From the NCBI RefSeq assembly GCF_000238255.3, contig NZ_CP011040.1:1054001-1118000 (forward strand): DNA of 64,000 bases. The letters run 5' to 3'. Both the position numbers and the translations under genes were made by a program. Of this stretch, positions 39,476-55,583 are shown piece after piece (within the stretch, counting starts at the first letter, position 1; every line of letters begins with the position of its first letter). The notes under the pieces are model-generated. The model made no database searches. It had not been told where the DNA came from and was given only the letters and a program-made list of their open reading frames with translations. The stretch is from Pseudoalteromonas spongiae UST010723-006 (GTDB lineage: Bacteria; Pseudomonadota; Gammaproteobacteria; Enterobacterales; Alteromonadaceae).

Positions 39476-41017
39476 TTAATGAGGCTTAATAAATTCGCCC
39501 GCTAGCGCGCCGGTAAACGTGCCCGCTTTAATCACATGCTGGCCATTTATAAACACATCGTTAAATCCACTGGTCAATACATTCCATTGTTTAAAGCTGG
39601 CATTGACCGTTACATCTTTAGGATCAAACACAATCAAATCAGCGGATAGTCCGTGTTTTATTGCGCCTCGGTCTGAAATATTGAGTGCATTTGCTGTGGC
39701 CGTTGTACTTTGATAAATAAACGTTTCTAAACTAAGTACCTGCTGCTCAAGCACATACGTGGTTAGTTTTTTAGCAAAACTCGCATATTTACGCGGGTGA
39801 CCATTGCTTCCATCTGATGATGTGACAACCCACGGTTTAACCATAAAGTGATTAACATCCTGTTCCGACATATTAAACGATGCAACTTTCACGACAGGAC
39901 CTTGTGCCAACTCAATCACGGTATCTGCAGGCGTAAGTGAACGGTCTTTTGCAACCTCAGCGAGGGTTTTACCAGTAATCCCCTCTTGCTCTGTCACGGT
40001 AATAAGCAAGCGTTCAGCCCCACCACGACGACGGATATTTTCACTTATTTCAGTAAAAATTTGTTGATATAAACGTTTATCTTTTAAGCGCTTAATAGTG
40101 GCTTTTTTACCCCCTTCGCGCACCCAGCTTGGTACAACAGCGCCACTGATTGAGGTACCTGATGCAAGCCAAGGATATTGGTCAGCTGTTATCTTTATGC
40201 CGCGTTGCTGCGCGGCTTCAACAAGTGCAATGGCATCATTTGCTTGTCCCCATACATCAACGCCGAGCGCTTTAATATGACCAAGATGCAATGGCATCTT
40301 GGCTTGCTCCGCTACATGAATTGCCTCTTTTACCGCGTTTAAAAAGCCAATATTAAAAGTACTTTCGTCTCGTAAATGCGTTTCATAAATACCTTGGTAA
40401 TTGGCAGCGACTTTAGCAAGTGAAACCACTTCTTCTGTCGTTGCAAACGTGCCCGGTAAATAATAAAGCCCTGTTGATAAACCTAAGGCACCAGCTTGCA
40501 TATTGCGCTCAACAAGGGCTTTCATTTTATTCATTTCTCGCGTAGTGGGTTGACGGTCTTCTTTTCCCATTACCGCATTGCGCACTGTATTATGGCCGAT
40601 AAAAAATGCCACATTTGTACCAATACCGTGCGATAACAGCTGCTTTGTAGTTTTAGCAATTGAGAGCGGGCTTTTGCCATCGTTACCATTAATTACAGTG
40701 GTGACTCCTTGCGTGAGGTAGTTCAAATTAGCGCTCGTTTTTTCGTTTTTCAGTTCAGACAAGCTGTGCGTATGAGGGTCAATAAAGCCTGGACTAATCA
40801 CTTTACTACCGTAATCAATATAATTTACATCTAAAGAACGGTATTTAAAGCGCTGGCCGATATCACATATCGTTTTTCCACAAATTGCGATATCAAGAGC
40901 TTCAAAGGATTTTTTATCGCTATTGAATACGCGTTCGCTACTGATCACATAATCAATTTGTGGCTTGGCAAACACACTAAGACTCAACACACTCAATGTT
41001 AATAGTAGATACTTCAT
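39476..41017 (-). CDS. Periplasmic N-acyl-D-amino-acid deacylase (D-aminoacylase)
   Basis: A 513-residue amidohydrolase with a signal peptide (1-18, ending SVFA). It shows the D-aminoacylase/dihydroorotase-type fold: the metal-binding VISPGFIDPHTHS, a long conserved helix GALGLSTGLYYLPGTFA, ETHLRDES, HIKALG, TADQYPW and a late VTSSDGSNGHPRKYASF Asp. These enzymes hydrolyse N-acyl-D-amino acids or D-amino-acid dipeptides, releasing the free D-amino acid. It is the last gene of a TonB receptor/M14 carboxypeptidase/deacylase operon, 8 bp after the carboxypeptidase. Being periplasmic, it likely finishes breakdown of D-residue peptides before uptake across the inner membrane. Confidence 0.88.
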   Translation of the reverse strand: MKYLLLTLSVLSLSVFAKPQIDYVISSERVFNSDKKSFEALDIAICGKTICDIGQRFKYRSLDVNYIDYGSKVISPGFIDPHTHSLSELKNEKTSANLNYLTQGVTTVINGNDGKSPLSIAKTTKQLLSHGIGTNVAFFIGHNTVRNAVMGKEDRQPTTREMNKMKALVERNMQAGALGLSTGLYYLPGTFATTEEVVSLAKVAANYQGIYETHLRDESTFNIGFLNAVKEAIHVAEQAKMPLHLGHIKALGVDVWGQANDAIALVEAAQQRGIKITADQYPWLASGTSISGAVVPSWVREGGKKATIKRLKDKRLYQQIFTEISENIRRRGGAERLLITVTEQEGITGKTLAEVAKDRSLTPADTVIELAQGPVVKVASFNMSEQDVNHFMVKPWVVTSSDGSNGHPRKYASFAKKLTTYVLEQQVLSLETFIYQSTTATANALNISDRGAIKHGLSADLIVFDPKDVTVNASFKQWNVLTSGFNDVFINGQHVIKAGTFTGALAGEFIKPH

Positions 41018-41025
41018 GGTGTTTC

Positions 41026-42177
41026 CTATTTTGCTGTTTTGGACTGATTAAGTAAGGTTTCACTCAAGGTGTTCGCTGCCGAAATTGCCACTTGCTTAAT
41101 CACCTTACGATTGGTGTTATCACCCATTTCGTATGTAATGGCGTGCACACCATAGGTATCTGATAACCACTGTTTAAATACGCCGCGCCCTGGGTTATGT
41201 CCCGGCTTATCAAGCACAGTGAAATTTGGCTCTGCATTCGCTAAGCGTTCAAGCCAATTAACGGTGGTATCATCAGGTGTTAAGCCTTTGCCTTGCGGCA
41301 TAGTGTAAAACACATCGTGGTGTGTTGAGTGAAAATCAACACCGTAGGTTATCTTGCCGCCACGTTTAACTATCGTATCTAAATATTGCTTAATTGCCGC
41401 GGTTTCAGGTTGCTTAAAGTGTTTCCAATCGCGGTTGAGGTCAACCCCGTTAACATTGTGTCGCCAATGACCAAGTGCTACACCATCAGGGTTAATATTT
41501 GGTACAAACACAATATTGTAGTGTTGCCTAAAAGTTGAATTTTCTAGCAGGGTTTCACTAAATGGGAAATACGCTAAAGCACCGGTAATTTCTGGTGGGT
41601 GCTGGCGTCCTATCACCAATAAATATTTGTCGCTTTGCCCTTTACTCAATAGCGCTGTAATCGCGCGTCCTTGAACCGATTGGCCAAGAGAAACTGAGGT
41701 TAATTCAAACCGCGTTTTAATGTTTTGCATCCAATTTTCATACGTGTGATTAGACACAATTTCTTGTCCTGCAACCAATAATGGCGTGTCGCCAAGTGTC
41801 ACTTGGAACACTAAATCACCGTTTTTAATACGGTACGGTAGCGCGGTCCAACTTACACCATCAACACTAGCCTTGGGATGATAACGATGTTTACCACCAT
41901 AGTACTTAACCCTAACGGTCACTTCACTTGCGGTTTTTGCCTGTAACTTAAACGCGTACCAAGGGCTGTCATTAATCGGTTTATTTTCCGGTTTAATGCT
42001 AATTGAGACATGGTTGCCATTGATTTTGCAATCATTCACTCGTGCACTTTCAAAATCAGTCGTTAACAACAGTGACTCACTTTGACAGCTTGCTTTACCA
42101 TCAAAATTAACGCTTGCGTGTAACGTGCAGCAAATGAATAAAAGCGATGCAGATAAGAGATGTTTATGAAATAACAT
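41026..42177 (-). CDS. Periplasmic M14 zinc carboxypeptidase
   Basis: A 383-residue secreted enzyme. The start is ATG 42177 (AAGG 8 bases upstream), which gives a clean signal peptide MLFHKHLLSASLLFICCTLHA; the ATG at 42210 falls inside a hairpin. A beta-rich N-terminal domain precedes the peptidase domain (about 150-375) with zinc ligands in GRQHPPEITG and VDFHSTHHD, the NPDGV...VNGVDLNRDW substrate region, and a catalytic Glu in TYEMGDNT. M14 members include enzymes that cut gamma-D-glutamyl bonds of murein peptides (MpaA type). The D-amino-acid context makes such a role attractive but unproven. Confidence 0.87.
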   Translation of the reverse strand: MLFHKHLLSASLLFICCTLHASVNFDGKASCQSESLLLTTDFESARVNDCKINGNHVSISIKPENKPINDSPWYAFKLQAKTASEVTVRVKYYGGKHRYHPKASVDGVSWTALPYRIKNGDLVFQVTLGDTPLLVAGQEIVSNHTYENWMQNIKTRFELTSVSLGQSVQGRAITALLSKGQSDKYLLVIGRQHPPEITGALAYFPFSETLLENSTFRQHYNIVFVPNINPDGVALGHWRHNVNGVDLNRDWKHFKQPETAAIKQYLDTIVKRGGKITYGVDFHSTHHDVFYTMPQGKGLTPDDTTVNWLERLANAEPNFTVLDKPGHNPGRGVFKQWLSDTYGVHAITYEMGDNTNRKVIKQVAISAANTLSETLLNQSKTAK

Positions 42178-42202
42178 AATGTGCCTTAAGAATACGAGAA
42201 AT

Positions 42203-42224
42203 AGCGGCATTTGTTCATGCCGCT
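42203..42224. repeat. Hairpin between the TonB receptor and M14 genes
   Basis: 8-bp perfect stem AGCGGCAT/ATGCCGCT with a 6-nt loop, located between the receptor stop (42249) and the M14 start (42177). No T-run follows on the minus strand. Such stems often adjust relative expression inside operons. Confidence 0.6.
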
Positions 42225-42248: not shown

Positions 42249-45068
42249 TTAAAACGATTTGCTGATATCAAAATAGAAATAACGGCCTCGGTTAGAATGC
42301 ACACTTGAAAAGTAACCAAAGCTTTCATCCGCAATCGGTGGCTTCTCGTCAGCAATATTGCGAACGCCAACACGTATACGCGTTTTCGATAACCACCCTG
42401 CGTCTTTAAAACGATAGTCGCCGTATAAGTTTATGGTCGTAAAACTATCTATTGGCAGAGGCTCACCATCTGATGTGGTAATGCTAGTATCGTAAAAATC
42501 ACTTACGTAGTTTGCAGTGGTACCGACTGACCACTGGTCGCGCTTAAAACGCATTGACGCATACGCGCGCCACTCAGGTCGGCCATTTTGCTGGATTAAA
42601 TCGCCAGCGCCCGTAATCACAATAGATTCTGGTACGGCTGGATCGCCAGCTTGCTGCGCCGCTAGCACTTGCGCTGTTATGTCATCAGGTTGTTGCTCAA
42701 AACGAATTAAGCGCGCTGCGTTCACCTTAAAATCAAAATTACCGAAGTCGGTTTTTAAATAATAAAAAACACTAAAATCAACGCCTTCAATTTCTCTTGG
42801 GCTTAAGTTGTCATATTGATTATTAACATGGATCACTTCATTGTCATCGCCGCGAATAACATTTGGGTTACTGCCACCTTGCGAGCGCAATAATGAATCA
42901 TACAGTAAATGCGTTTGACTGTTTAAAATACCCACCACACCATCTTGTTCGATATTCCACCAGTCGGCAGTCACAGTGATGTTATCAAATGGCATAAGTA
43001 CTAAACCAAACGATGTATTAGTATCGTCTTCAGGTTTTAAGTTTTTGTTACCACCGCGAATTTCTGTTATGCCATAAGAACTGTCGGTAATCGGGTCGTA
43101 GCGCGTATTTGAACGTGAAATTCCTTGCTCAACAACCTGTGGTAAGTTTGGCGCTCTAAACCCTTCGGCATAGGCGGCACGTACCTGTAACCAATCGCTT
43201 GGCATCCAACTCAATGCCACTTTAGGTTTGGTCACTGATCCCACATCAGAAAAGTTTTCATAACGCGCAGCAAGTTGAAGCTCTAAATTTTTGGCAAACG
43301 CTCTATCCATTAATAATGGTGCGACAAATTCAACATAGGCTGAAAACACATTGCGTGAACCATTTGAGTCTGGGGTATTGCTAGAGCCTAACACACCACT
43401 TTCAGACAACATTTCGCCGCTATTTTTATCAAAAAACGCTTTACTACCATCTAACAAGGGGTCACGATCATCTGAATAGGTTTCACGGCGGAATTCTACA
43501 CCACTGGCCATTCCCACTTCGCCATCGCCTAATTCAAATAGCGCAGCGTTTGAAACTTTAAAGTCCATAAGTGCCAGAGATGTTTTACTTTCTCGGTCGA
43601 TATTTACTAAAAACTGATCAATCACAGCTTGTGAATTAGGTGTTGCATCACCTGAGTTTAAGTTTGCTGGGTCTGCACCATTAAAAATGTTATATGCTGT
43701 CGCTGCATCTGTACTATTTACCGCATCAAAAAAGGCATTCGCATCAATACGGTTGTAAGTTTTATCATGGGTTTTCGCTTCGCTGTACAGTACCGCACTT
43801 TCCCAATCCCAATCCTGATAATAACCAGACAAACCTGTTAACACCCGAAAGCTTGTATCTTTAACCTGAATGTCTCGCAATCCTGTATCAACTGGACGGT
43901 AACGGCGCATTGTCACTGTTTCACCGAACGGGTTGTAATACGCATCAGGACTGATAGTAAAGCGTTGCGCGGTTAAATTGCCAGCTTGTTCACGCCAGCG
44001 CTGAGTTTCTGCATGGTAATAAATGGCTTCGCCAAATAATGTGATGTCGTTATCCAAGTCGTGATTTAAATAGCCGTAAAAGTTTGCACGTTGCACGTCA
44101 GAGGTCATGCTTTGCTCGAGTGCACGATCATAACGCATGTCGCGCGACAAACTGCCCTTATCAGCACATAAACCGTCGCCTAACTCAACAACACAGCCTG
44201 ACATTGTATTTGGTTGAATATGAAATGTTTTTAGCGTATCTGTTGAAAATTCACCCCAAGGTGATGAGGTTGAACGATTATCAAGTTGCGTATCGCCAAT
44301 ATATTCTTCAGGTAACCCTGCGTATTCTCTGCGGTCTTGCGAAGCCGCATAATCTCTGTCTGACGCGGGCATGCCTTTTCTGTCATATAGGCTTAAGCTC
44401 ATTGTTAGGTGGGTTTTGTCATCATTAAACGATAACCCTGTTGCACCAGAGATACTTGTTTGACTAAGCTCTGTACCTTGTGACGTACCGTGGTTTACAC
44501 TGATACGTGAGCCTTCATAATCATCTTTTAATACATAGTTCACAACACCCGCTACGGCATCTGAGCCATAAATTGCCGCAGCACCATCACGTAAAACTTC
44601 AACACGCTTTAAACCACTTACCGGTAAAGTGTTTGCATTAACCGTTGACACTGGAACAAAGTTTTCAGTTTGCGTGCCTGGGTGTAACACTAAACGACGA
44701 CCATTTAATAAGGTAAGTGTATTACCAGTACCTAAGCCACGTAAGTTAATTGACGATACATCGCCACGTGCATCGTTTACACCACCAATAGCACGTTCGT
44801 TATTAAACGCCATTTCACCGATTTGTGGAATTGAACGTAACAACTCTTCACCGGTTGCCGCCCCTGTTGCTGCGATATCGTCACTGCTCATTACTGTAAT
44901 CGGTAGGGTATCTGCCACTTGAGCACGTTTGATATTTGACCCAAGTACTTCGACACGTTCTATTTCAGTGTCTTTTGTCGTTTGCTCATTTGCGTTTGCT
45001 GTTATGCTGGTTATCACAGCCAGTGCCATTGCACTTAGCTGAAATCTGGTTTTGCCCGTGTTGTTCAT
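42249..45068 (-). CDS. TonB-dependent receptor of the D-amino-acid locus
   Basis: A 939-residue outer-membrane transporter. Signal peptide (1-26), a TonB-box-like region (EIERVEVLGSNIKR at about 33-46), plug (about 50-170; ATGEELLRSIPQIGEMAF, SINLRGLGTGNTLTLLNGRRLV, RVEVLRDGAAAIYGSDAVAGVVNYVLK) and a barrel ending FDISKSF with terminal Phe. This subtype is usually linked to peptide or polymer uptake and has no carboxypeptidase-like prefix. It leads an operon with a secreted carboxypeptidase and a D-aminoacylase, so the cargo is probably a D-residue-containing peptide. An ATAAC-N5-GTTAT palindrome lies 117 bp upstream. Confidence 0.9.
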   Translation of the reverse strand: MNNTGKTRFQLSAMALAVITSITANANEQTTKDTEIERVEVLGSNIKRAQVADTLPITVMSSDDIAATGAATGEELLRSIPQIGEMAFNNERAIGGVNDARGDVSSINLRGLGTGNTLTLLNGRRLVLHPGTQTENFVPVSTVNANTLPVSGLKRVEVLRDGAAAIYGSDAVAGVVNYVLKDDYEGSRISVNHGTSQGTELSQTSISGATGLSFNDDKTHLTMSLSLYDRKGMPASDRDYAASQDRREYAGLPEEYIGDTQLDNRSTSSPWGEFSTDTLKTFHIQPNTMSGCVVELGDGLCADKGSLSRDMRYDRALEQSMTSDVQRANFYGYLNHDLDNDITLFGEAIYYHAETQRWREQAGNLTAQRFTISPDAYYNPFGETVTMRRYRPVDTGLRDIQVKDTSFRVLTGLSGYYQDWDWESAVLYSEAKTHDKTYNRIDANAFFDAVNSTDAATAYNIFNGADPANLNSGDATPNSQAVIDQFLVNIDRESKTSLALMDFKVSNAALFELGDGEVGMASGVEFRRETYSDDRDPLLDGSKAFFDKNSGEMLSESGVLGSSNTPDSNGSRNVFSAYVEFVAPLLMDRAFAKNLELQLAARYENFSDVGSVTKPKVALSWMPSDWLQVRAAYAEGFRAPNLPQVVEQGISRSNTRYDPITDSSYGITEIRGGNKNLKPEDDTNTSFGLVLMPFDNITVTADWWNIEQDGVVGILNSQTHLLYDSLLRSQGGSNPNVIRGDDNEVIHVNNQYDNLSPREIEGVDFSVFYYLKTDFGNFDFKVNAARLIRFEQQPDDITAQVLAAQQAGDPAVPESIVITGAGDLIQQNGRPEWRAYASMRFKRDQWSVGTTANYVSDFYDTSITTSDGEPLPIDSFTTINLYGDYRFKDAGWLSKTRIRVGVRNIADEKPPIADESFGYFSSVHSNRGRYFYFDISKSF

Positions 45069-45184: not shown

Positions 45185-45201
45185 CATAACCTAAAGTTAT
45201 G
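45185..45201. promoter_or_regulatory. Candidate DgcR-type operator, site A
   Basis: CATAAC-CTAAA-GTTATG, a 6+5+6 perfect inverted repeat in the 336-bp region between the divergent TonB receptor and LysR genes. It matches the palindromes before dgcN (46302) and before the CapA-family gene (55569). T-N11-A spacing is present, as expected for LysR regulators. Nothing else was recognised in 45069-45404. Confidence 0.65.
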
Positions 45202-45404
45202 CATAGCGATTATTTCGTCACTACCAGGGAGGATTTCACCTTTGTTAATATGACGTTACATCTTTCTCACAGAAACTCGTTTTATTGCATAAAATAATAT
45301 ACAAATATAATAAATCGATAAGTTGAGCAGACTTTTGGTTTACAACGAGTCCAATTTAGCGACTTGCTAAGCATTAAATTCAGCATTACAAGAACGAGAG
45401 CACT

Positions 45405-46280
45405 ATGCGATTAAGACACATTGAAGTATTTCACGCCATATACACAACTGGTTCAATCACCAATGCGGCGCAGTTTCTTCATGTTTCTCAACCATCAGTG
45501 AGTAAGGTGTTGGCTCATGCCGAACAACAATTGGGTTTTGCACTATTTGAACGGGTAAAAGGACGCCTGATCCCCACTTCGCAAGCAGAAGCCTTGTTTA
45601 GCGAAGTTGACAAGGTATACAAGCAGATCCGCGGGGTTAGAAATACCGCAGAAAATATCAAGAAAAGCAGCTCTGGGCACATTAATATTGGCTTTACTCC
45701 AGCGCTTGGTTTTGATCTTATTCCTCTTGTAATTAGCGAATTTAAAAAGCGCTACCCAGGAGTACATATAAACTTGCAAACATTGCATAACGAAGATGTA
45801 CAACAAGCTTTGATGGAACATAAACTCGATTTAGCAATTATGTTTTCTCCTCCACCGATAGCTAACATCAGCGCAATTCCACTTTGTAAAAGCGAGATGG
45901 TAATGGTTGCACCCAAGCCAATTTTACCGTCGCAGCAAACTGATATCGAAACCAGTGAGCTGGCAAAGCATGAACTAATCGGCATTTGGGATAGCGGCCC
46001 GCTCGGTGACTTATTATGGAATCGCTTATCCGAAAATGAAGTCAGTGTGTCAAGTTCGATTCAAGTACAAACCTATTTCATTGCGTCGCGTTTAGTGGCG
46101 CAAAATATTGGCGTATGTGTGGTAGATGAATTTACTGCGCGAGGTAATTTAACAAATGATACCGACTACGCAGGATTCAAACCTAAGCTGGAATTTGATG
46201 TACAAGCGCTTCATTTAAGTGATAAACCTTTATCGGTTAACTGCCAGGCATTTATCGATATTTTAATGAAACAGGTTTAG
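45405..46280 (+). CDS. LysR-family regulator of the D-glutamate locus (DgcR-like)
   Basis: A 291-residue LysR regulator: winged HTH (about 1-60; MRLRHIEVFHAIYTTGSITNAAQFL, VSQPSVSKVLAHAEQQLGFALFERVKGR) and a substrate-binding domain (about 88-288; GHINIGFTPALGFDLIP). It sits between a D-peptide uptake operon (divergent) and dgcN-dgcA (123 bp downstream, same strand). I recall a LysR-type regulator named DgcR for dgc genes of marine Alteromonadales; position and type fit, but identity is not verified here. Predicted sites are ATAAC-N5-GTTAT at 45186, 46305 and 55569. The inducer is probably D-glutamate or its N-acetyl form. Confidence 0.85.
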   Translation: MRLRHIEVFHAIYTTGSITNAAQFLHVSQPSVSKVLAHAEQQLGFALFERVKGRLIPTSQAEALFSEVDKVYKQIRGVRNTAENIKKSSSGHINIGFTPALGFDLIPLVISEFKKRYPGVHINLQTLHNEDVQQALMEHKLDLAIMFSPPPIANISAIPLCKSEMVMVAPKPILPSQQTDIETSELAKHELIGIWDSGPLGDLLWNRLSENEVSVSSSIQVQTYFIASRLVAQNIGVCVVDEFTARGNLTNDTDYAGFKPKLEFDVQALHLSDKPLSVNCQAFIDILMKQV

Positions 46281-46301
46281 TTAACACATTCAAAAATAAC
46301 A

Positions 46302-46322
46302 CCTATAACCTTTAGTTATAGG
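46302..46322. promoter_or_regulatory. Candidate DgcR-type operator, site B, upstream of dgcN
   Basis: CCTATAAC-CTTTA-GTTATAGG, a perfect 8+5+8 inverted repeat ending 81 bp before the dgcN start. It is the longest and cleanest of the three sites. Confidence 0.75.
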
Positions 46323-46403
46323 CCTAAAAAGGCTTGGAAATAGGCAAGATTTGTACATTCACTTAGTGTAGAGGTATCAACATTAAGAACAACGAGACCC
46401 ACT

Positions 46404-47396
46404 ATGCTACAAGCCCCTTATTTAGTTTTCCTTGGCGATGCCACCGATCCACTTTCCATCAAAATGGCCAAAGGCGTAGCCACATGGAAGCCAGAGTTAT
46501 GCGTTGGTCAATATCGTTTAGATGGCTGTTCTGAAAGTGCTAACTTACCCGATATGAGCATTGCCGAAGCTGCTGAAAAAGGAGCGAAAACCTTTGTACT
46601 AGGGTTTGCCAATTCTGGCGGTAAAATTGATGAAAGCTGGCTGCCCTATATAAAAGAAGCAATTAAAAATGGCATGGATATCGTCAGCGGCCTTCACGAT
46701 AAGCTCACTGATTTTCAGGAGCTTGTAGCGCTAAGTTCCCAACATCACTGCAAATTAATCGACATTCGCCACCCAACTGAAAAGTTCGCCACCGGTACTG
46801 GCTATAAACGCGGCGGTAAACGCCTATTGACCGTTGGTACTGACTGTTCGGTTGGCAAAATGTATACTTCGTTAGCCCTTGAGAGTGCAATGCGTGAAAA
46901 CGGCATAAATGTGGATTTTCGCGCAACAGGTCAATGCGGCGTACTAATTGAGGGCAAAGGCCTTGCAATTGACTGTGTAGTGGCAGATTTTATTAGCGGT
47001 GCAGCGGAAACATTATCACCCAATAATACTGCTGATCACTGGGATATAATCGAAGGCCAAGGTTCGTTATCGCATCCCGCCTTTGCAGGTGTCAGCCTTG
47101 GATTATTGCACGGTTCACAACCGGATGCCCTGGTTATTTGTCATGCGCTTGGACGCAGTTCAATGCGCGGGCTAACAGATCGCCCTTTACCTACCTTAAA
47201 GCACACAATCGAACTTAATCTTGCGGCGGCCAGTATCACTAATCCAGCGGTTAAAGTTGCTGGTATTACAATTAATACATCCTCGGTAAGTGAACAACAA
47301 GCCAATGAAATCTGCCGTAATTTAAGTCAAGAGCTGGGACTTCCCGTGGTTGATCCATTACGTCATGGCGTACAATCAATTGTGGACAATCTATAA
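46404..47396 (+). CDS. dgcN: D-glutamate N-acetyltransferase (DUF1611)
   Basis: A 330-residue DUF1611 protein. An N-terminal Rossmann-like domain (YLVFLGDATDPLSIKMAKGV) is followed by a P-loop-like domain with LTVGTDCSVGKMYTSLAL and FRATGQCGVLIEG, both strongly conserved in the family. In marine Proteobacteria DgcN acetylates D-glutamate to N-acetyl-D-glutamate, which DgcA then racemises. The stop of this gene overlaps the dgcA start by one base (TAATG), and the pairing with a muconate-lactonizing-type racemase is diagnostic of the pathway. Cytoplasmic. A palindromic site upstream suggests control by the adjacent LysR protein. Confidence 0.9.
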   Translation: MLQAPYLVFLGDATDPLSIKMAKGVATWKPELCVGQYRLDGCSESANLPDMSIAEAAEKGAKTFVLGFANSGGKIDESWLPYIKEAIKNGMDIVSGLHDKLTDFQELVALSSQHHCKLIDIRHPTEKFATGTGYKRGGKRLLTVGTDCSVGKMYTSLALESAMRENGINVDFRATGQCGVLIEGKGLAIDCVVADFISGAAETLSPNNTADHWDIIEGQGSLSHPAFAGVSLGLLHGSQPDALVICHALGRSSMRGLTDRPLPTLKHTIELNLAAASITNPAVKVAGITINTSSVSEQQANEICRNLSQELGLPVVDPLRHGVQSIVDNL

Positions 47397-48412
47397 TGGC
47401 AATTTCGATATCATTACATCAACAATCTTGGCCCTTAGCACAGCCGTTTCGTATTTCACGCGGGGTTAAAAGCCATGCACAAACGATTGTTGTGACTATT
47501 TCAGACGGCGAATTTCAAGGCTTTGGCGAAGCAGTGCCCTATGCCCGCTATGGTGAAACCTGTGCATCAGTAGCTGCACAAATCGAAGCGCTGGGCTGTG
47601 AATTTTCATCAGACGCTGCGCTTCAGCACGCAATCAGTGAGTTAAAAGCAGGCGCCGCTCGTAACGCGCTTGATTGCGCACTTTGGGACTTTAACGCGAA
47701 GTCACAATCGCAAAGTGTTAGCAAAATGCTGAAAATACCATTACACCCCTTAACGACAGCTCAAACAATTAGTTTAGACAGTACACAAAATATGGCTATT
47801 GCGGCAAAAGCATTAGCCAATGCACCGCTCATTAAGGTCAAACTTGATGCCGATTCGGTGCTAGATAAAATGAAAGCAATTCACGTAGCAGCGCCACACA
47901 GCAAATTTATTGTTGATGCGAATGAAGCATGGAATTTCGATTTATTAAAAGCTGTACTGCCTACGCTGAAACAGTACAATGTTGCATTGATAGAACAACC
48001 CCTGCCAGCCGGTAATGATCAGGCGCTCACTCAGTTAACGCCGTGCGTTCCAATCTGTGCCGACGAATCATGCCATACACGACACCAATTAGCAGAGCTT
48101 AAAAACCGCTATCAGGCAATCAATATTAAGCTTGATAAAACTGGCGGTCTAACCGAGGCACTAGCTTTATTAAACGAAGCAAAACAACACGGTTTTATTA
48201 TTATGACCGGCTGCATGGTAGCGAGTTCGTTAGCGATGGCACCCGCCTTTCTAATTGCGCAGCACGCTGATTTTGTTGATTTAGACGGGCCTTTGCTCCT
48301 TAGCAGCGATATTGCATGTGGCTTTGAGTTTCATGGTACACAAATGTCTCAACCCACCCCCTTTATTTGGGGGGAAGCAAAAGCACACTCAAGCAAAATA
48401 ACGGGACTTTAG
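47396..48412 (+). CDS. dgcA: N-acetyl-D-glutamate racemase (dipeptide-epimerase family)
   Basis: A 338-residue enolase-superfamily enzyme of the muconate-lactonizing/dipeptide epimerase subgroup. The KxK catalytic pair is in LIKVKLDAD, the metal ligands are Asp in VDANEAW, Glu in LIEQPLP and Asp in CADESC, and the opposing catalytic Lys is in INIKLDKTGG. By itself this could be an L-Ala-D/L-Glu epimerase, but coupling to dgcN makes N-acetyl-D-glutamate racemase the better call; the product N-acetyl-L-glutamate can be deacetylated to L-glutamate. Cytoplasmic. The next gene starts one base after its stop, suggesting translational coupling. Confidence 0.88.
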   Translation: MAISISLHQQSWPLAQPFRISRGVKSHAQTIVVTISDGEFQGFGEAVPYARYGETCASVAAQIEALGCEFSSDAALQHAISELKAGAARNALDCALWDFNAKSQSQSVSKMLKIPLHPLTTAQTISLDSTQNMAIAAKALANAPLIKVKLDADSVLDKMKAIHVAAPHSKFIVDANEAWNFDLLKAVLPTLKQYNVALIEQPLPAGNDQALTQLTPCVPICADESCHTRHQLAELKNRYQAINIKLDKTGGLTEALALLNEAKQHGFIIMTGCMVASSLAMAPAFLIAQHADFVDLDGPLLLSSDIACGFEFHGTQMSQPTPFIWGEAKAHSSKITGL

Positions 48413-48413
48413 T

Positions 48414-49367
48414 ATGAGCAAGCGTGACTTTTATACGACATTTGCCCAAGCCAAGCACGCAGCACACACTTTTAACTTTACCAGTGCTATCGACTATCGC
48501 TATCGGCGTTGCCAATGTGATAGTCGTTTACATTCTAATCCGCAGTCCTATTACAAAAATGAGTGGCAAGGCTGGCATGATTTTTTAAACACAGCCCCTG
48601 CCACAGAAAGACTTTACAAAGATTACTCCAGTGCAAAACGCGTTGCTGCAAACGCAAATTTTAAAAATGCCCGTGCATATAAGCTATTTTGTAAAACAGT
48701 TGACGAACGCCTGCCCAAAGTGCCCGAACAGTTTTACGCAGAGCAATGGCAAGGTTGGTCGCACTTTCTCGGCATTAAAAGAAAGACCTATTACCAAGAC
48801 TACAAAGAAGCCCAGCAAGCTGCAAAAGCGCTCGGTATTTCGAGTTCGCTTGCTTATTTTGCAACGCGTAAAGAACATGACGAAAAGCTGCCTCCTAACC
48901 CAATTAAACATTATTTGAATGACTGGGTATCTTGGTATGACTTTTTAGGCACTAAACGTGAAGACAATAAGCTTTACAACGAATACAACACCGCCAAATC
49001 GGTTGCGAAACAATTTAAGTTTACCTCAGCCAGTGATTATCAAAAACGCGCGAAACGTTGTGACATTCGCCTACCCTGTAAACCGCGTGAAAAGTACAAA
49101 GAAGACTGGATTAGTTGGGGTGATTTCTTAGGATTATGCGATTGTAGCCAACACACACTACCTTCGTTTTCAACACTTAAAACTATGGTGCGCGAACAGC
49201 AATTTCGCAGTATTAATGACTATGTTACCAAGCGCCATTTCATTGCAGACAACCTGCCGATTTTACCTAACGAGGTCTATGATGAGTGGCAAGGTTGGCG
49301 AGATTTTTTAGGTGCGAGTTACCGCACCAATCAGTGTTTTCCTACGCTGACTCATTATATGCGCTAG
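48414..49367 (+). CDS. Five-repeat WxGWxxFLG protein (phage-integrase repeat-like)
   Basis: A 317-residue basic, soluble protein made of five tandem units of about 60 residues. Each runs YxxAKxxA...F.SA.DY, then D.RLP.NP...Y, and closes with a W.GW.DFLG signature (EWQGWHDFLN, EQWQGWSHFLG, DWVSWYDFLG, DWISWGDFLG, EWQGWRDFLG). This resembles the 'phage-integrase repeat unit' found N-terminal to some marine integrases, but no catalytic domain is present. The gene starts one base after dgcA, so it appears to be the third gene of the dgc operon. Function unknown; the charge and the repeats suggest nucleic-acid binding. Its end overlaps the convergent DUF2145 gene by four bases. Confidence 0.8.
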   Translation: MSKRDFYTTFAQAKHAAHTFNFTSAIDYRYRRCQCDSRLHSNPQSYYKNEWQGWHDFLNTAPATERLYKDYSSAKRVAANANFKNARAYKLFCKTVDERLPKVPEQFYAEQWQGWSHFLGIKRKTYYQDYKEAQQAAKALGISSSLAYFATRKEHDEKLPPNPIKHYLNDWVSWYDFLGTKREDNKLYNEYNTAKSVAKQFKFTSASDYQKRAKRCDIRLPCKPREKYKEDWISWGDFLGLCDCSQHTLPSFSTLKTMVREQQFRSINDYVTKRHFIADNLPILPNEVYDEWQGWRDFLGASYRTNQCFPTLTHYMR

Positions 49368-50170
49368 TTAGACGCAAGTAACTGACGAGCGGGTTGATTG
49401 TAACTAAGCGTTATGACATTTGATGCCAAATCATACGATGACAGGTATTTCGCTATACTCGTAAACGTGGTGGTATAAATTTTCGTACCATGATCATCGG
49501 TCGACACGCCATCCATAAATAAGTTTCCCATTGCCAATTTTGCACGGTTTACTCTAATACGCTGCGGCTTAAAATACGCTTTGGTGTTCGCTTTTAATTG
49601 CTGTGTATCTGTAGTTTGATAAATCGCTGAGTTAATTAGATCTAATAAATGCTCGTTGCAATTTTGATATTTTGTTGAGTAAGGGTTTGATATAAGTGAG
49701 TAATTGCTATTGTGCAGAGTAATATTATTACCGTTAACAACGGCTTCAATTAGTCGAGATTGTAGGTCGCTGTCAGGAATAATAATACCCGCAGTAAGCT
49801 CTGGCACACCCCAAAAAAAATCCACAGGATAATCTGTCACTAAACTGCTTTTGTCTTTATCTTTTGGCTCTTGATACAAGTTATAAATAGCATACCCTTT
49901 TGCTGTGTCGCCGTTATCAAGGGCAATTTCAGAATAAATCGCTAATGCCGAATGGGTAAAATTAACTCCTTTTGGTAAATCTTTTTTCGCTTGCCCTATG
50001 CGCGCAATAATAAATGCACGCGCACCTTTTTTAGCTGCATAGTGCTCAACTTGTTTAGCAAACGCGGTTACATCCTCAACCGGAAACGTTTGCTTTTGTT
50101 GTTGCTGGCTGCCTGCAATGGCAGCCTTCGATAACAACAAGCAACTAATTAATGCATATGTCCATTTCAT
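49364..50170 (-). CDS. DUF2145 family secreted protein
   Basis: A 268-residue protein with a signal peptide (1-19, ending AAIA). The pattern ARAFIIARIGQAKKDLPKGVNFTHSALAIYSE and the later NCNEHLLDLINSAIY fit DUF2145, a family whose Cys-His arrangement suggests a papain/NlpC-like fold. Here the early 'RIGQ...FTHSA' His and the Cys of YQNCNEHLLD are kept. The biochemical role is not known. It is followed on the same strand by nothing else; the small secreted protein encoded at 50263 lies 92 bp upstream, and the two may form one transcript. Confidence 0.75.
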   Translation of the reverse strand: MKWTYALISCLLLSKAAIAGSQQQQKQTFPVEDVTAFAKQVEHYAAKKGARAFIIARIGQAKKDLPKGVNFTHSALAIYSEIALDNGDTAKGYAIYNLYQEPKDKDKSSLVTDYPVDFFWGVPELTAGIIIPDSDLQSRLIEAVVNGNNITLHNSNYSLISNPYSTKYQNCNEHLLDLINSAIYQTTDTQQLKANTKAYFKPQRIRVNRAKLAMGNLFMDGVSTDDHGTKIYTTTFTSIAKYLSSYDLASNVITLSYNQPARQLLASN

Positions 50171-50262
50171 AATGTTTCTCCCTTAATGCTATTTAACCCG
50201 GAAATAAGTAACAGGAGCTGCTAGAAACTCATTTGTTATCCCGAATTAAGATTATTACTTAA

Positions 50263-50604
50263 TTACTGCTTGCACTTTTTCTTCATTGCATGTGCAGGTG
50301 AACGGTCTACTGTGATAGTCACCTCGGTAATTTCAAGCGGTGCATCCGGTTTTTTGCTAAGTGATTTTGCAGTGCGTATTGCTTTATCGCCCGCAGCCAT
50401 ACTCACCATGCCAACACTGCCAGCGGCAATTAAAGGTACCGCGACTACACCGCTAGCAACTTGTGCTGAGCCTTTTGCTGAATGGACCGTTGCTAGCGAT
50501 GAATGCTTGCTCGCCTCACTAAAATTATCTGATGCTGCATTTGCGTGATACGGCATTGCTGCGAAAAGTACTGAACTGATTACAATTGATTTAATAAACT
50601 TCAT
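50263..50604 (-). CDS. Small secreted protein of unknown function
   Basis: A 113-residue protein with a signal peptide (1-23, ending NANA). The mature part has a hydrophobic glycine/alanine-rich stretch (ASGVVAVPLIAAGSVGMVSMAAG, about 51-73) that could insert in a membrane, then a basic tail KKKCKQ with one Cys. I do not recognise a family with certainty. It is transcribed ahead of the DUF2145 gene with a 92-bp gap, and a good RBS (AGAGGAA) supports the start. It diverges from the HTH regulator gene. Confidence 0.75.
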   Translation of the reverse strand: MKFIKSIVISSVLFAAMPYHANAASDNFSEASKHSSLATVHSAKGSAQVASGVVAVPLIAAGSVGMVSMAAGDKAIRTAKSLSKKPDAPLEITEVTITVDRSPAHAMKKKCKQ

Positions 50605-50733
50605 GTTAATTCCTCTTGGGTGGTTCCGTTTACGTTTTTTAAATTAGGAGAAAGAATTATCTATGTAAACCAAAATGGTTGAAGTATGAAATTTAAAGAC
50701 TTAAAGTATCAAAAAATAATACCAAGGATGATT

Positions 50734-51474
50734 ATGAGCCAAATTAAAAGCGTCACCTTAACGCTTAAACAATTGCTAAAACAACATAAACTTACCTACC
50801 GCGATGTTGCAGCGCATCTAGATTTAAGTGAAGCAAATGTAAAGCGTGTTTTTGCTAGTAATAACTTTTCGCTAACGCGGCTTGAACAAATTTGCCAACT
50901 GCTCAATATTAGCCTTACTGATTTGTTTTCATTAACTGAGAAACAACAAAGCCAATTATCACAATTAAACTTAGAGCAAGAACAACAGCTGGTTGATGAC
51001 CCTAAACTGTTACTTGTTGCGGTATGTATTCGCGATGGCTGGCAATTTGATGAAATTATTGACCAATACGATATAGATCAATTCGAAGCGATCCGTTTGA
51101 TGGCTAAGTTAGACAAACTCAAAATTATTCAGCTATTGCCCAATAATCATTATAAATCGCTTATCGCACAAGATTTTCGTTGGCAAAAAAATGGACCATT
51201 AGAGCGCTTTATGGAAAACGAAGTCATGACTAAGTTTATGGCTAACAAATTCGATAACATTGATGCATCTCGCTTTTATTTACGTGGCCGTTATTCACAA
51301 ACTTCCATCGATTACATTAAGAAGAAACTAGAGCAGCTGACTAAAGAAGCCGCACAACTCAATATTGAAGATGCCGATCTTGCCCTTGATAAACGCAAAC
51401 ACATGGGCATATTGTTTGCGATGCGCCCATGGGAACCATCGTTATTTGAACAGTTTAGACGCGTAAAAAGTTGA
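50734..51474 (+). CDS. XRE-type HTH transcriptional regulator
   Basis: A 246-residue protein. The ATG at 50734 is chosen because AAGGA lies 5 bases before it; an in-frame ATG at 50686 would add 16 residues without an RBS. Residues 5-65 form a Cro/CI-type HTH (LKQLLKQHKLTYRDVAAHLDLSEANVKRVFASNNFSLTRLEQICQLLNIS). The rest (80-246) is a helical domain with no recognised ligand site. Such regulators are widespread in marine gammaproteobacteria and of unknown target. It diverges from the DUF2145-linked pair, which it may control. Confidence 0.85.
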   Translation: MSQIKSVTLTLKQLLKQHKLTYRDVAAHLDLSEANVKRVFASNNFSLTRLEQICQLLNISLTDLFSLTEKQQSQLSQLNLEQEQQLVDDPKLLLVAVCIRDGWQFDEIIDQYDIDQFEAIRLMAKLDKLKIIQLLPNNHYKSLIAQDFRWQKNGPLERFMENEVMTKFMANKFDNIDASRFYLRGRYSQTSIDYIKKKLEQLTKEAAQLNIEDADLALDKRKHMGILFAMRPWEPSLFEQFRRVKS

Positions 51475-51595
51475 TTTGGTAGCATAAATTAATACCAAAA
51501 AGCGTAAAATAAGCAACTTTAAAATATAAAGTTTACTTATACGTAATTATCCCGATACTTGTGTGTAACTTAATTGACAAGCATGGAAAAATAAT

Positions 51596-52027
51596 ATGGA
51601 TAATTTAAAACCAACCAGCGCATTTAAATTAAGCGCTATCGCAAGTTTAGTGATTGGCATGGGCGCGTATTTAATTGGCTTATACAATGCAACATTACTG
51701 TTGAACGAAAAAGGTTATTACCTAATTATTTTGCTTTACAGTTTATTTGCAGCAGTGTCGTTACAAAAAGTGGTACGTGATAAACAACAAGGTTTACCTA
51801 TATCAAAGCCGTACACAATGATTTGCTGGGTATCACTGGCAATTGCTATCGCATTACTTGCGATCGGCCTGTTTAACGCCGATATGTTACTCAGTGAAAA
51901 GGGCTTTTTTGCCATGGCGTATACCTTATCACTGTTTTCAGCCATCACAGTACAAAAGAATATTCGCGATATGTTAGCGTTCAAACAGGATGAAGATGCC
52001 CCTGCATCGCCAGAAATAATTGAATAA
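51596..52027 (+). CDS. YiaA/YiaB-like inner-membrane protein
   Basis: A 143-residue protein with two copies of a two-helix unit (about 12-55 and 78-120). Each has the motif GLYNATLLLNEKGYY / GLFNADMLLSEKGFF followed by a second helix and a Q.V.RD / QKNIRD end, which defines the YiaA/YiaB family. No function is established. It is monocistronic, ended by a strong terminator, and preceded by the HTH gene. The acidic tail (QDEDAPASPEIIE) is probably cytoplasmic. Confidence 0.9.
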   Translation: MDNLKPTSAFKLSAIASLVIGMGAYLIGLYNATLLLNEKGYYLIILLYSLFAAVSLQKVVRDKQQGLPISKPYTMICWVSLAIAIALLAIGLFNADMLLSEKGFFAMAYTLSLFSAITVQKNIRDMLAFKQDEDAPASPEIIE

Positions 52028-52040
52028 TAGTAATTAAAAA

Positions 52041-52063
52041 GGGAAGCTCGCTTCCCTTTTTTT
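52041..52063 (+). terminator. Rho-independent terminator after the yiaA-like gene
   Basis: GGGAAG-CTCG-CTTCCC followed by seven T's, and preceded by five A's that extend the stem. Confidence 0.94.
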
Positions 52064-52164
52064 ACATTTGTAACCACATAATTACAACAATCACCAATAA
52101 CTACAGGCTTACACTTTTCATTACTCTACACTAGCGCGAAATCTTACTATAAAGAGTAACGTCC

Positions 52165-53424
52165 GTGCTTATTAGAAAAACACTTATCGCATCATCGCTA
52201 ATGATGGTGTGTGCAAATGCCACCGCTGGCGCTTTCCAACTCAATGAACACAGTGCATCAGGTTTAGGCCGCGCCTTCGCAGGTGACGCTGCAATTGCCG
52301 ATGATGCCAGTATTGTTGCACGTAACCCTGCAGGTATGAGCAAAATTAAAGATGCACAAATCAGTGGTGTTGTGTCATACATTGCGCCCGATGTGTCGGT
52401 ATCTGGATTAAGTGCCTCAAACGGCAGTGATATCACAAGCTTAAATGACAACAGCATCGCGCCTTCAGCTGTCATACCAGCAGGATATTTTGTGTTACCA
52501 ATCGACGAGCGTTTAACGCTTGGTGGTGGTGCGTTTTCAAACTATGGTTTAAGCACCGAGCTAAATGACGATTACAACGCGGGCCAACTTGCCGGCGAAA
52601 CATCACTTACCACGGTCAATTTTAATCTAAGTGCTGCATACAAGGTAACAGAGCAACTGAGCGTAGGCGCAGGTTTAAATTTAGTCTATGCCGACGCAAA
52701 CTTAGTTCGACACTTTGGTGAAACAGCATTTAACCTACCAAATGAGTTAGAAGCAGCAAACTTAGAAGGTGATGATATTGCGGTTGGTTGGAATATCGGT
52801 GCACTTTACGAATTAAACCACGACCACCGTTTTGGCCTAAGCTACCGCTCTCAAGTAGAGCTCGATCTAGAAGGTGATTACTCTAATCAACTACCGACCA
52901 TGCTCGGTGGCTTACAAGGAAAGGTATTACCAGGCCAACTTGCCATTACCTTACCTGATATTGCTGAGTTTTCGGGTTATCACGCATTAACTCCGGCATT
53001 GGCTATTCATTACAGCGTGCAATGGACCGACTGGAGTGATTTCCAAGAGTTAGCCGCTTATGTTGAAGGCAAAGAAGACGCAGTATTTTCCAAAACTGAA
53101 GATTTCAGCGATGCATATCGTGTGTCGCTCGGTGCGAGTTATCAGCTTACACCGACAGTAATGATCCGTGCAGGTATCGCTAACGACGCGACACCAACTA
53201 ACTCGGCGCACAAGTCAATTTCAATTCCAGATAGCGACCGAATCTGGTATAGCACCGGCTTAAGCTATTCGCCTAACAAACAGCATAAAATTGATTTTGC
53301 AGTCACTTTCATTGACGGTGAGTCGGTTAGTTTTGAAGAACGTGATGATTTAGGCCAAACTTGGGGTTTTGAATCGCACGGCGACGCCAGTTTAGCTGCA
53401 GTGCAATACAGCTACACATTCTAA
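52165..53424 (+). CDS. FadL-family outer-membrane transport protein
   Basis: A 419-residue outer-membrane channel of the OMPP1/FadL/TodX family for long-chain fatty acids or other hydrophobic compounds. GTG start after AAAGAG. Signal peptide ends ANATAGA; the mature N-terminus GAFQLNEHSASGLGRAFAGDAAIADDASIVARNPAGM includes the conserved NPAG hatch motif. The barrel ends VQYSYTF with terminal Phe. E. coli FadL is about 446 residues, so the length is normal. Monocistronic, with a bidirectional terminator after it. The substrate could be fatty acids or hydrocarbons. Confidence 0.93.
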   Translation: MLIRKTLIASSLMMVCANATAGAFQLNEHSASGLGRAFAGDAAIADDASIVARNPAGMSKIKDAQISGVVSYIAPDVSVSGLSASNGSDITSLNDNSIAPSAVIPAGYFVLPIDERLTLGGGAFSNYGLSTELNDDYNAGQLAGETSLTTVNFNLSAAYKVTEQLSVGAGLNLVYADANLVRHFGETAFNLPNELEAANLEGDDIAVGWNIGALYELNHDHRFGLSYRSQVELDLEGDYSNQLPTMLGGLQGKVLPGQLAITLPDIAEFSGYHALTPALAIHYSVQWTDWSDFQELAAYVEGKEDAVFSKTEDFSDAYRVSLGASYQLTPTVMIRAGIANDATPTNSAHKSISIPDSDRIWYSTGLSYSPNKQHKIDFAVTFIDGESVSFEERDDLGQTWGFESHGDASLAAVQYSYTF

Positions 53425-53428
53425 TCGT

Positions 53429-53455
53429 AAAAAAGAGGCATTTGCCTCTTTTTTT
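53429..53455. terminator. Bidirectional terminator between fadL-like and capA-like genes
   Basis: GAGGCA-TT-TGCCTC stem with seven T's on the plus strand and six on the minus strand. It touches the stop codon of the CapA-family gene (53454). Confidence 0.93.
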
Positions 53456-55484
53456 AGCGTTGTTTTATCACAAGCCCTGCAGCTTTTTTCAATGGCTGTT
53501 CAAAGCCAATATAGGTTGCATGGCCCGCCCCATTATGAAAATGTGCTTGCTGTTGTTTTGGCAGAAAAGGGGTTCGCCACTCGATAAAGGCTATATCGTC
53601 TATAAACACCTCTCCACTGTGCTCAAACTCAAACAACACGCGAATACTGCGATACCCTACTCTTGGCGTATTAAATTCACTGGCTATTTCTTGCCAATTT
53701 CCATTAAGCTCAATGCTATCTATTCGATGTTTTTTACCATTTTTTAGTGAGTCGAGTAATTTACCTCGCGTTTTACGCCCCTGCCAATAAACATTAACCC
53801 TACCTTTACCTTTCACCATTGCACTGACGGTTGCTGGGTTTCCTGCTCGGTAAACACGCGTAAAGTTAGTCATTGCCAGTTGCGACTGCCCATTGTCACC
53901 TTGGCTTTTTAGCGCATAATCGCCACTGAAAGCCTGTTTATCACTGATCTGAAACGAACTTTGATCCAAATTAAACCCACGATCATGAGAATAATATGCC
54001 ATGTGGGTTTCTAAATTCGCGTTGTTTATCAAATTTACTCCTAATCGATAGCGGTTTATTTCACTCGTTTTAACGGCCGTAACATGTCCTTCGCTTGCAC
54101 GATAAGGCAAGGGTAAAACACGTTTATTTTGTGCTGAAAGTGTAATTTCAAATTCTTTCGCTACTTTTGTGTTTGGTAATATAACGCCATGGCCAGCATT
54201 TCGTGCAAAATGGGTATTGCGTTTACTGGTTAGCTCATCAAGACGTGTCAAAATACGCGTACGATGACTGCCTGTTGCCGGTGTTGGCACATAGCCCTGT
54301 AGATAAACCGGCACAACTTCAGCACGATAGAAGCGCTCGCCATCCATCCAAACGTACAACATAAATGAGTGATTTGTAGCGTAAAAAAACTGATCAAAAA
54401 TAAAGTTGCCCATTGAATACGCAATCAGCTTTCCGTTATACACTTCAAAACCCTGCGCAACATGCGGATGGTGTGCAATTGCCAGATCTGCGCCGGCGTC
54501 AATTGCTGCTTTTAAGCGTGTCTCGGTCATCATTGACGGTTCATCTTGGTATTCCAGACTGCCATGATATTGCGCAACCGTTACACGATTATCTGCCACT
54601 TCGCGTTTCACTGTAGCAACAATATTGTCATAAGAGCCATGGGCTGCCCCGCCCTTTACCTTTGTTGCTGTTTGACTAGGCTGTGCACTGCCTTCCCATC
54701 CAACATAACCAAGCATTGCGTACTGATTACCTTGAATAGATGTACGATACGCTTTGAGCGCTTCGGCTTCATTAACGCCTGCGCCTGAATACGGCATTTG
54801 GTAATTATTCAGCGCTTCTAGGGTGGATTTTAGACCTGAATCTAAGTAATCGTAAGTATGGTTATTTCCAAGAGTGACGTAATCAACACCCGCATCTTTA
54901 AGTGCGCTAATCGTCTCTGGTGGTGAGAAAAACGTCACCGATTTAGGCGCACGTTGCGTTGGTGTTTTATCCGCTATTTGGCTTTCTAAATTAACTGCTG
55001 CAAAGTCGGCTTTTTTAATGTAAGGCGCCATATACTGAACAATTGCTTTGGTATCAGCGGCAATCGTTTCATCGTGAATGAGAGTAGGATTATCAAAATA
55101 GGGTTTGGCATAACGTCTGCCCATCATTACGTCGCCGCCAAACGCTAACAGAACACGCTCTTTTTTCTTAGCAACTAAGGTGATTTTGCCTAAATCAACA
55201 TTGCCTGTGTGCCTGTTTTCGAGTTCGAAGTGTGAATAGCTAAAGCGCATACTATAAAAATTAGAAGCACTAATATCGAGCGCATATATGGCATGTTTTG
55301 ACAGCTCTAATGAAAAGTCACCTTCACTTGAAGTAACAACGGATGTGTCGCCAATTTTTATATGTGCATTGGCAATTGGTTTATTGCTATCTGTAACAAC
55401 CTTGCCCGACAACATCATTAAGCTCTCTGCTTTGCTCACAAGCGGCAAGAGTAAACAGACTGTAAACGCTATTCGTAAAATCAT
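53454..55484 (-). CDS. CapA-family (poly-gamma-glutamate type) metallophosphatase-fold protein
   Basis: A 676-residue secreted protein. Signal peptide (1-19), a carboxypeptidase regulatory-like domain (about 24-100; LSGKVVTDSNKPIANAHIKIGD), a CapA domain (about 110-405; LLAFGGDVMMGRRY, AAVNLESQI, VTLGNNHTYDYLDSG, AIAHHPHVAQGFEVY, YSMGNFIFDQ) with the Asp/Asn/His metal set of the calcineurin fold, then a carbohydrate-binding-like beta domain (about 500-650). CapA proteins act in poly-gamma-glutamate capsule export or hydrolysis, though many have unknown roles. An ATAAC-N5-GTTAT palindrome 84 bp upstream matches the D-glutamate operators, which supports a link to a glutamate polymer. Confidence 0.85.
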   Translation of the reverse strand: MILRIAFTVCLLLPLVSKAESLMMLSGKVVTDSNKPIANAHIKIGDTSVVTSSEGDFSLELSKHAIYALDISASNFYSMRFSYSHFELENRHTGNVDLGKITLVAKKKERVLLAFGGDVMMGRRYAKPYFDNPTLIHDETIAADTKAIVQYMAPYIKKADFAAVNLESQIADKTPTQRAPKSVTFFSPPETISALKDAGVDYVTLGNNHTYDYLDSGLKSTLEALNNYQMPYSGAGVNEAEALKAYRTSIQGNQYAMLGYVGWEGSAQPSQTATKVKGGAAHGSYDNIVATVKREVADNRVTVAQYHGSLEYQDEPSMMTETRLKAAIDAGADLAIAHHPHVAQGFEVYNGKLIAYSMGNFIFDQFFYATNHSFMLYVWMDGERFYRAEVVPVYLQGYVPTPATGSHRTRILTRLDELTSKRNTHFARNAGHGVILPNTKVAKEFEITLSAQNKRVLPLPYRASEGHVTAVKTSEINRYRLGVNLINNANLETHMAYYSHDRGFNLDQSSFQISDKQAFSGDYALKSQGDNGQSQLAMTNFTRVYRAGNPATVSAMVKGKGRVNVYWQGRKTRGKLLDSLKNGKKHRIDSIELNGNWQEIASEFNTPRVGYRSIRVLFEFEHSGEVFIDDIAFIEWRTPFLPKQQQAHFHNGAGHATYIGFEQPLKKAAGLVIKQR

Positions 55485-55568
55485 TTTTTTAAGTTTGTTT
55501 TTTGGTTATAGAAGCAACACGCTAACACGGAAAACACACCAGCAACAGTGACAGAATAAATGGAGTGC

Positions 55569-55583
55569 ATAACCTGAGGTTAT
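55569..55583. promoter_or_regulatory. Candidate DgcR-type operator, site C, upstream of the capA-like gene
   Basis: ATAAC-CTGAG-GTTAT, extended by CATAAC on one side and GTTATAG on the other. It ends 84 bp before the gene start, almost the same distance as site B from dgcN (81 bp). The rest of 55485-55753 shows only a possible half site, GGTTATA, near 55503. Confidence 0.6.

Follow-up and report, generated by a model that had tools for sequence, protein, structure and literature searches.

A 64-kb stretch of the genome of Pseudoalteromonas spongiae UST010723-006, probably a marine bacterium (64,000 nucleotides of contig NZ_CP011040.1; hereafter the window, whose positions are used throughout) carries three groups of genes preceded by the same palindromic site. 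We consider it likely that these groups form one regulon, in which a single LysR-type regulator (DgcR) controls three transcription units devoted to the outside-in scavenging of D-glutamate (D-Glu).

The presumed operon on the minus strand begins with a gene for a TonB-dependent outer-membrane receptor (42249..45068; PF00593, PF07715). It continues on the same strand with an M14 zinc carboxypeptidase (41026..42210; PF00246 and PF18027, with an N domain like that of cytosolic carboxypeptidases) and a D-aminoacylase-like amidohydrolase (39476..41017; Pfam Amidohydro_3) whose N terminus looks signal-like by eye. The M14 protein, which has PDB relatives 3l2n and 4a37 and a weak similarity to MpaA (26 bits against a cut-off of 157), is a putative gamma-glutamyl or murein peptide carboxypeptidase. 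PDB relatives of the amidohydrolase include a D-aminoacylase (1rjp, 3e-56) and an N-acyl-D-glutamate deacylase (3gip, 5e-40). Divergent from the receptor, on the plus strand, lie the gene for the LysR-type regulator, our DgcR candidate (45405..46280; PF00126, PF03466), dgcN for D-glutamate N-acetyltransferase (46404..47396; NF041892, 520.6 bits against a cut-off of 480) and dgcA for N-acetyl-D-Glu racemase (47396..48412; NF042940, 452.7 bits against 400). As both proteins score above the curated cut-offs and their genes are adjacent, the pair was assigned to the DgcN-DgcA pathway. The third unit is a gene for a long-form CapA (53454..55484, minus strand) with a PGA_cap metallo-domain (PF09587, 5e-59).

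The first-pass annotation of this DNA held that matching palindromes precede the receptor operon, dgcN and capA, and our counts confirm it. The pattern ATAAC-N5-GTTAT, which that annotation had set before any comparative count was made, occurs in exact form three times in the window, whereas 100 shuffles of the window gave a mean of 0.18 and a maximum of 2. Site 1 (45186..45200) lies between the divergent receptor and lysR genes, site 2 (46305..46319) before dgcN, and site 3 (55569..55583), a perfect 7+7 palindrome, before capA. From the end of the motif to the ATG there are 84 bp for dgcN, 84 bp for capA, 117 bp for the receptor and 204 bp for lysR; the near-equal spacing noted earlier is thus an equal one, the 81 bp quoted for dgcN needing correction to 84. 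A refined site, ATAACCTNAGGTTAT (14 scored positions), was defined only after some of the loci counted below had been seen, and sites 1, 2 and 3 differ from it by 1, 2 and 0 mismatches. T-N11-A is a hallmark of LysR-type sites. With the lysR gene beside dgcN and a T-N11-A palindrome before each target, the three units have the make-up of a DgcR regulon, and the LysR protein is predicted to bind the palindromes. The best matches of our literature searches included no paper on a DgcR site.

Site placement and gene linkage in relatives

The comparison drew on 196 genomes, including the window genome (G numbers), and on fetched gene neighbourhoods (L numbers). The loci examined for upstream sites were the dgcN and long CapA neighbourhoods of relatives and of named genomes; for the latter, 53 loci (L160-L212) of 80 were analysed, the remainder being weaker matches. 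Excluded from the counts were L163, L168, L183 and L186, which share genomes with other loci, L144, which overlaps L046, loci with less than 150 bp upstream or a match beginning beyond residue 60, and receptors below 38% or LysR proteins below 45% identity. The amidohydrolase and M14 genes, being internal to the operon, served as negative controls.

The exact pattern was found before 32 of 38 TonB receptor genes (shuffle mean 0.07), 20 of 36 dgcN genes (0.04), 9 of 58 long-form capA genes (0.05) and 5 of 8 genes for the decarboxylase described below (0.01). Allowing at most 2 mismatches to the 14 positions of ATAACCTNAGGTTAT, these counts became 32/38, 26/36, 28/58 and 5/8, with shuffle means of 0.12, 0.12, 0.14 and 0.01. 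No control gene had a site upstream (amidohydrolase 0/35, M14 0/36). The exact pattern also precedes lysR (6/37), NhaC-like (9/15), GltS (6/16) and LPLAT (1/2) genes, the LPLAT site, in L160, being in an intergenic region common to LPLAT and capA; it was absent before GabD (0/6) and GabT (0/6). At the same limit of 2 mismatches, a dgcN site is present in 24 of 27 loci with a LysR homologue versus 2 of 9 without one; both of the latter, L059 and L103, are neighboured by a more divergent LysR gene (35% and 33%).

Full-length CapA relatives (E <= 2e-144) were found in 13 of the 196 genomes and DgcR relatives (E <= 1e-50) in 21, the window genome being counted in both. The two occur together in 12 of the 13 CapA genomes (hypergeometric 8e-13, ignoring kinship). 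The exception, G015, has kept capA and its flanking genes; no DgcR was seen there, and its capA site is eroded. In four genomes (G116, G156, G175 and G186) dgcA is followed directly by a convergent capA, and capA adjoins the cluster in Pseudoalteromonas, Colwellia, Shewanella, Psychrobium, a Kangiella relative and Alphaproteobacteria. The amidohydrolase gene comes after the M14 gene in the receptor operons of most relatives. Relatives also carry a gene of about 577 residues between receptor and regulator; its identification as a gamma-glutamyltransferase was considered and rejected, and the three copies scanned (L052, L055 and L061) are carriers of the Na+/H+-antiporter family PF03553.

Some further features of these neighbourhoods were recorded. 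Immediately 3' of dgcA the window encodes a 317-residue protein with INT_rpt repeats (48414-49367; PF14882). Its relatives occupy the same position in L160 and follow lysR in L137 and L138, both without dgcNA; in L137 the site persists between lysR and the INT_rpt gene, as though dgcNA had been lost. An 861-residue M14 protein stands beside the D-aminoacylase and receptor in L144 (L144:2180-4765, G025) in place of the shorter one, and a second M14 gene in L061 (L061:14525-15715) lies immediately upstream of capA, the site being between them.

Three exits and a predicted D-glutamate decarboxylase

In the relatives the shared front end joins one of three exits, an arrangement that is new here: DgcN-DgcA, a DadA-like dehydrogenase or a LysA-like decarboxylase. 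These enzyme types are unrelated to each other and all are for D-amino acids. Of the 53 named CapA loci, 14 contain dgcN, 3 the decarboxylase and 8 the DadA-like FAD enzyme, and no two exits are ever found together (25 of 25 exit-bearing loci have one kind). For six of the eight DadA-like genes Pfam returned PF01266, and two of these six, scored in NCBIfam, fall just below the cut-off of the D-amino acid dehydrogenase model; L190 and L204 are known by tblastn alone.

The LysA-like decarboxylase, a pyridoxal phosphate (PLP) enzyme, is found in exactly six of the 196 genomes (G002, G016, G033, G108, G110 and G120; E 1e-60), all of which have DgcR and CapA and no linked dgcN-dgcA. G120 has an unlinked dgcN, and G115, one of the 21 DgcR genomes, only a piece of dgcN. 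Twelve genomes with no dgcN in the capA locus were searched for the decarboxylase elsewhere (the L161 genome was not), and it was found in eight, all Colwellia, each time preceded by a site at <=2 mismatches, some 101-113 bp ahead of the match. A dgcN was also present in 2 of these 8 and in one of the other four, and 3 of the 12 had neither gene. Strict exclusivity was accordingly rejected for genomes, given G120 and the two Colwellia with both, and holds for loci: from locus to locus one exit stands in for another, and from genome to genome the rule is looser. Among individual loci, the decarboxylase gene bears the site in L097, L100, L140 and L157 and is without it in L158, L159 and L164; it adjoins the gene for the glutamate symporter GltS in L097, L140, L157 and L158. 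Further downstream in L097, past a divergent LysR-family gene, are genes for succinate-semialdehyde dehydrogenase and gamma-aminobutyrate (GABA) transaminase, and in Colwellia L175, L179, L182 and L191 GabD-GabT come immediately before capA.

Other genes were observed near these exits. An NAD-dependent glutamate dehydrogenase (GDH) gene (L140:10766-15511) lies by a regulon site opposite the decarboxylase, and another, recognised by similarity to it, lies by a site upstream of the TonB receptor gene in L178 (L178:3-2414). In L158 (7016-8320, G002) the decarboxylase and GltS genes are followed by one combining an N-formylglutamate amidohydrolase-like stretch (33 bits) with a Golvesin C-terminal domain.

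From its sequence and its gene neighbours we predict that the LysA-like enzyme is a natural D-glutamate decarboxylase. According to PMC8277567, diaminopimelate (DAP) decarboxylases act on a D-centre, and in the Thermotoga enzyme (TmDAPDC) the distal amine is recognised by Glu315 and the distal carboxylate by two arginines. Phe occupies the Glu315 position in 8 of 8 aligned decarboxylases, in 8 of 8 Colwellia copies and in all 120 of the homologues listed (from a total of 4581), and Glu is kept in five solved LysA and in the window genome's own LysA (GPVCETGD). Both arginine-bearing stretches look retained, on an inferred numbering. The candidate shares fold III of the PLP enzymes and a length of about 425 residues with LysA and with the engineered TmDAPDC variants of PMC8277567; it differs in the Phe replacing the distal-amine Glu and in its linkage to D-Glu genes.

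It could instead be an ordinary or catabolic diaminopimelate decarboxylase using murein DAP, which we regard as rather unlikely. Database names given to its homologues are mostly diaminopimelate decarboxylase, and DAP is present in murein peptides. In PMC8277567, changes at Glu315 shift the substrate, and Glu315Phe, the very replacement seen here, had no detectable D-Glu activity; among the tabulated variants only Glu315Gln had a little. Arguing the other way, the one protein scored lies below the TIGR01048 cut-off for LysA (238.3 against 297.9 bits), the substitution by Phe is uniform among the listed homologues whereas the window genome's LysA retains Glu, and the enzyme is found with GltS, GabD-GabT or GDH in several genomes and occurs where linked dgcNA are missing. 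The phrase 'D-glutamate decarboxylase' was not found in a search of 5.39 million papers, most subscription papers being outside its reach.

The regulon model and its alternatives

In the model that we favour, DgcR would sense D-Glu or a derivative of it, bind ATAACCTNAGGTTAT before the three transcription units and activate them for the use of D-Glu that is bound in polymers or peptides. Secreted CapA would attack a D-glutamate-bearing polymer, the TonB receptor would bring in the fragments, and the M14 carboxypeptidase and D-aminoacylase would set D-Glu free in the periplasm, from where it would cross the inner membrane through a carrier (NhaC-like, GltS or GltP-like in relatives). DgcN and DgcA would convert it to N-acetyl-L-Glu, a decarboxylase or DadA-like enzyme acting instead in relatives. 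A DgcN-DgcA-DgcR pathway for D-glutamate was reportedly described in Pseudoalteromonas sp. CF6-2 by Yu et al. in ISME J in 2023. The same components are seen here, with dgcN and dgcA above equivalog cut-offs and a LysR gene preceding them; what differs is that the presumed site also stands before an outer-membrane and periplasmic harvesting operon and before the CapA gene. Polysaccharide utilisation loci likewise combine a dedicated regulator, a TonB receptor, secreted enzymes, import and catabolism. The logic here is the same and the substrate, a peptide or D-amino acid, differs.

Several observations weigh against this regulon. No carrier was recognised among the 12 window proteins scanned between 39476 and 56347 (two small ORFs excluded), nothing within 2 mismatches of the site was present at the genome's NhaC-like and GltS relatives (30-39% identity), and no importer preceded by the site turned up in the rest of the genome. 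At <=2 mismatches 30 of the 58 capA upstream regions are without a site, including those of L055, L062 and L100, where capA is beside the cluster; the eight DadA-like loci have one at capA in 3 and at the receptor in 2 of the 7 counted. None of the three exit genes is present in the fetched DNA of 28 of the 53 named loci. The footprint sets include kindred genomes, so that the counts are not independent trials, and some absences of CapA or DgcR may be missed matches, at most 6 and 12 candidates respectively having been scored per genome. A scan of the whole genome (two contigs, 4.75 Mb) with the motif, as the first-pass annotation had advised, showed that the bare pattern is not rare, with 31 exact matches versus 13 for the reversed control. 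Of the 28 outside the window, 23 fall within crude ORFs, 11 differ from ATAACCTNAGGTTAT at 2 positions and none at fewer, and on score alone the dgcN site is not special in its own genome. Two other intergenic 2-mismatch sites were seen, one with no ORF start within 300 bp and one 73 bp before an HlyD-type membrane-fusion gene with no obvious link.

These genome-wide counts would suit palindromes that arose by chance or that serve some unrelated regulator, with CapA as a bystander, as would the 9 kb between the capA and dgcN sites and the six predicted genes separating dgcA from capA. We nevertheless hold this to be very improbable and rejected chance palindromes, because the upstream placement of the site is conserved in other genera and families; it is this placement, and not the score in the window genome, that makes the case for the sites. 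The empty operon-internal controls (0/71), the co-occurrence of CapA with DgcR and the four genomes with capA beside dgcA point the same way. A D-glutamate regulon comprising the receptor/M14/D-aminoacylase operon, dgcN-dgcA and CapA, as first proposed, is thus strongly supported by the footprints and by the neighbourhoods in other genera.

The role of CapA calls for separate weighing. Its N terminus looks signal-like by eye, a CarboxypepD_reg-like domain scores below the Pfam cut-off, and the beta-rich C-terminal part probably resembles carbohydrate-binding modules. The PGA_cap domain and the residues of a calcineurin-like metal site (D118, E167, N208, H209, D212, H307 and H341, invariant in 49 sequences) place it in the CapA/PGA_cap family. 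That family name would suggest genes for making or remodelling a capsule of poly-gamma-glutamate, which seems to us very improbable. CapC gave no match in the window genome and is absent from 12 of the 13 long-CapA genomes (a Bacillus subtilis control was detected), and the matches in the thirteenth, G098, lie on contig C192, separated by about 3 kb from another capA paralogue; the nameable linked gene families serve uptake or breakdown. Capsule synthesis was rejected on the missing CapC (CapB was not searched for). The first-pass idea of a concerted system for D-Glu polymers is therefore upheld as regards consuming them, and not as regards making or remodelling them; the genes fit a role in scavenging D-Glu, whether from murein peptides or from poly-gamma-glutamate, and do not fit capsule making.

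The best solved match of CapA is the peptide epimerase MslH (8gq9), and 'CapA' is for this reason better taken as a fold-family label; predicted giant-virus proteins named capsule synthesis protein likewise resemble the CapA model, with a best TMt of 0.78. Within the same regulon, CapA might not be a hydrolase but a metal-dependent MslH-like epimerase whose inversion of glutamyl residues makes them accessible to peptidases. PMC10406935 gives MslH two catalytic His/Asp dyads, plus Glu44 and Asn87, and all have invariant counterparts in the 49 CapA sequences. These residues, however, are general to the calcineurin-like fold and do not decide between hydrolase and epimerase. The calcium ligand His259 of MslH is by position Gln305 in CapA, in a weak sequence alignment, and an epimerase would lessen the need for DgcN-DgcA. 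We think an epimerase unlikely. CapA scores below the cut-off of the MslH model NF038314 (49.9 bits against 700); compared with MslH it has an extra N-terminal domain and the beta-rich C-terminal part, is linked to D-Glu genes and is probably secreted. CapA most likely hydrolyses a gamma-D-glutamyl or murein bond, and the carbohydrate-binding-like tail would favour a glycan-borne substrate (murein) over free poly-gamma-glutamate.

More tentatively, and with the balance tipped slightly against the proposal holding in full, the genes may represent a modular 'D-glutamate utilisation locus'. It would have a fixed front end (CapA, TonB receptor, M14, D-aminoacylase and DgcR) and three interchangeable exits. 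One exit would be the first natural D-glutamate decarboxylase, turning D-Glu into GABA and then, through GabT and GabD, into succinate, and CapA would represent a new class of enzyme, one that breaks open gamma-D-glutamyl or murein polymers. In the sea, the D-Glu of peptidoglycan makes up a large pool of organic matter with slow turnover. The regulon proposed here supplies candidate outer-membrane and periplasmic steps by which bacteria might reach D-Glu ahead of the DgcN-DgcA step. It would also assign a substrate class to a CapA branch currently named for capsule synthesis, and it predicts that a D-glutamate decarboxylase hides under the diaminopimelate decarboxylase label.

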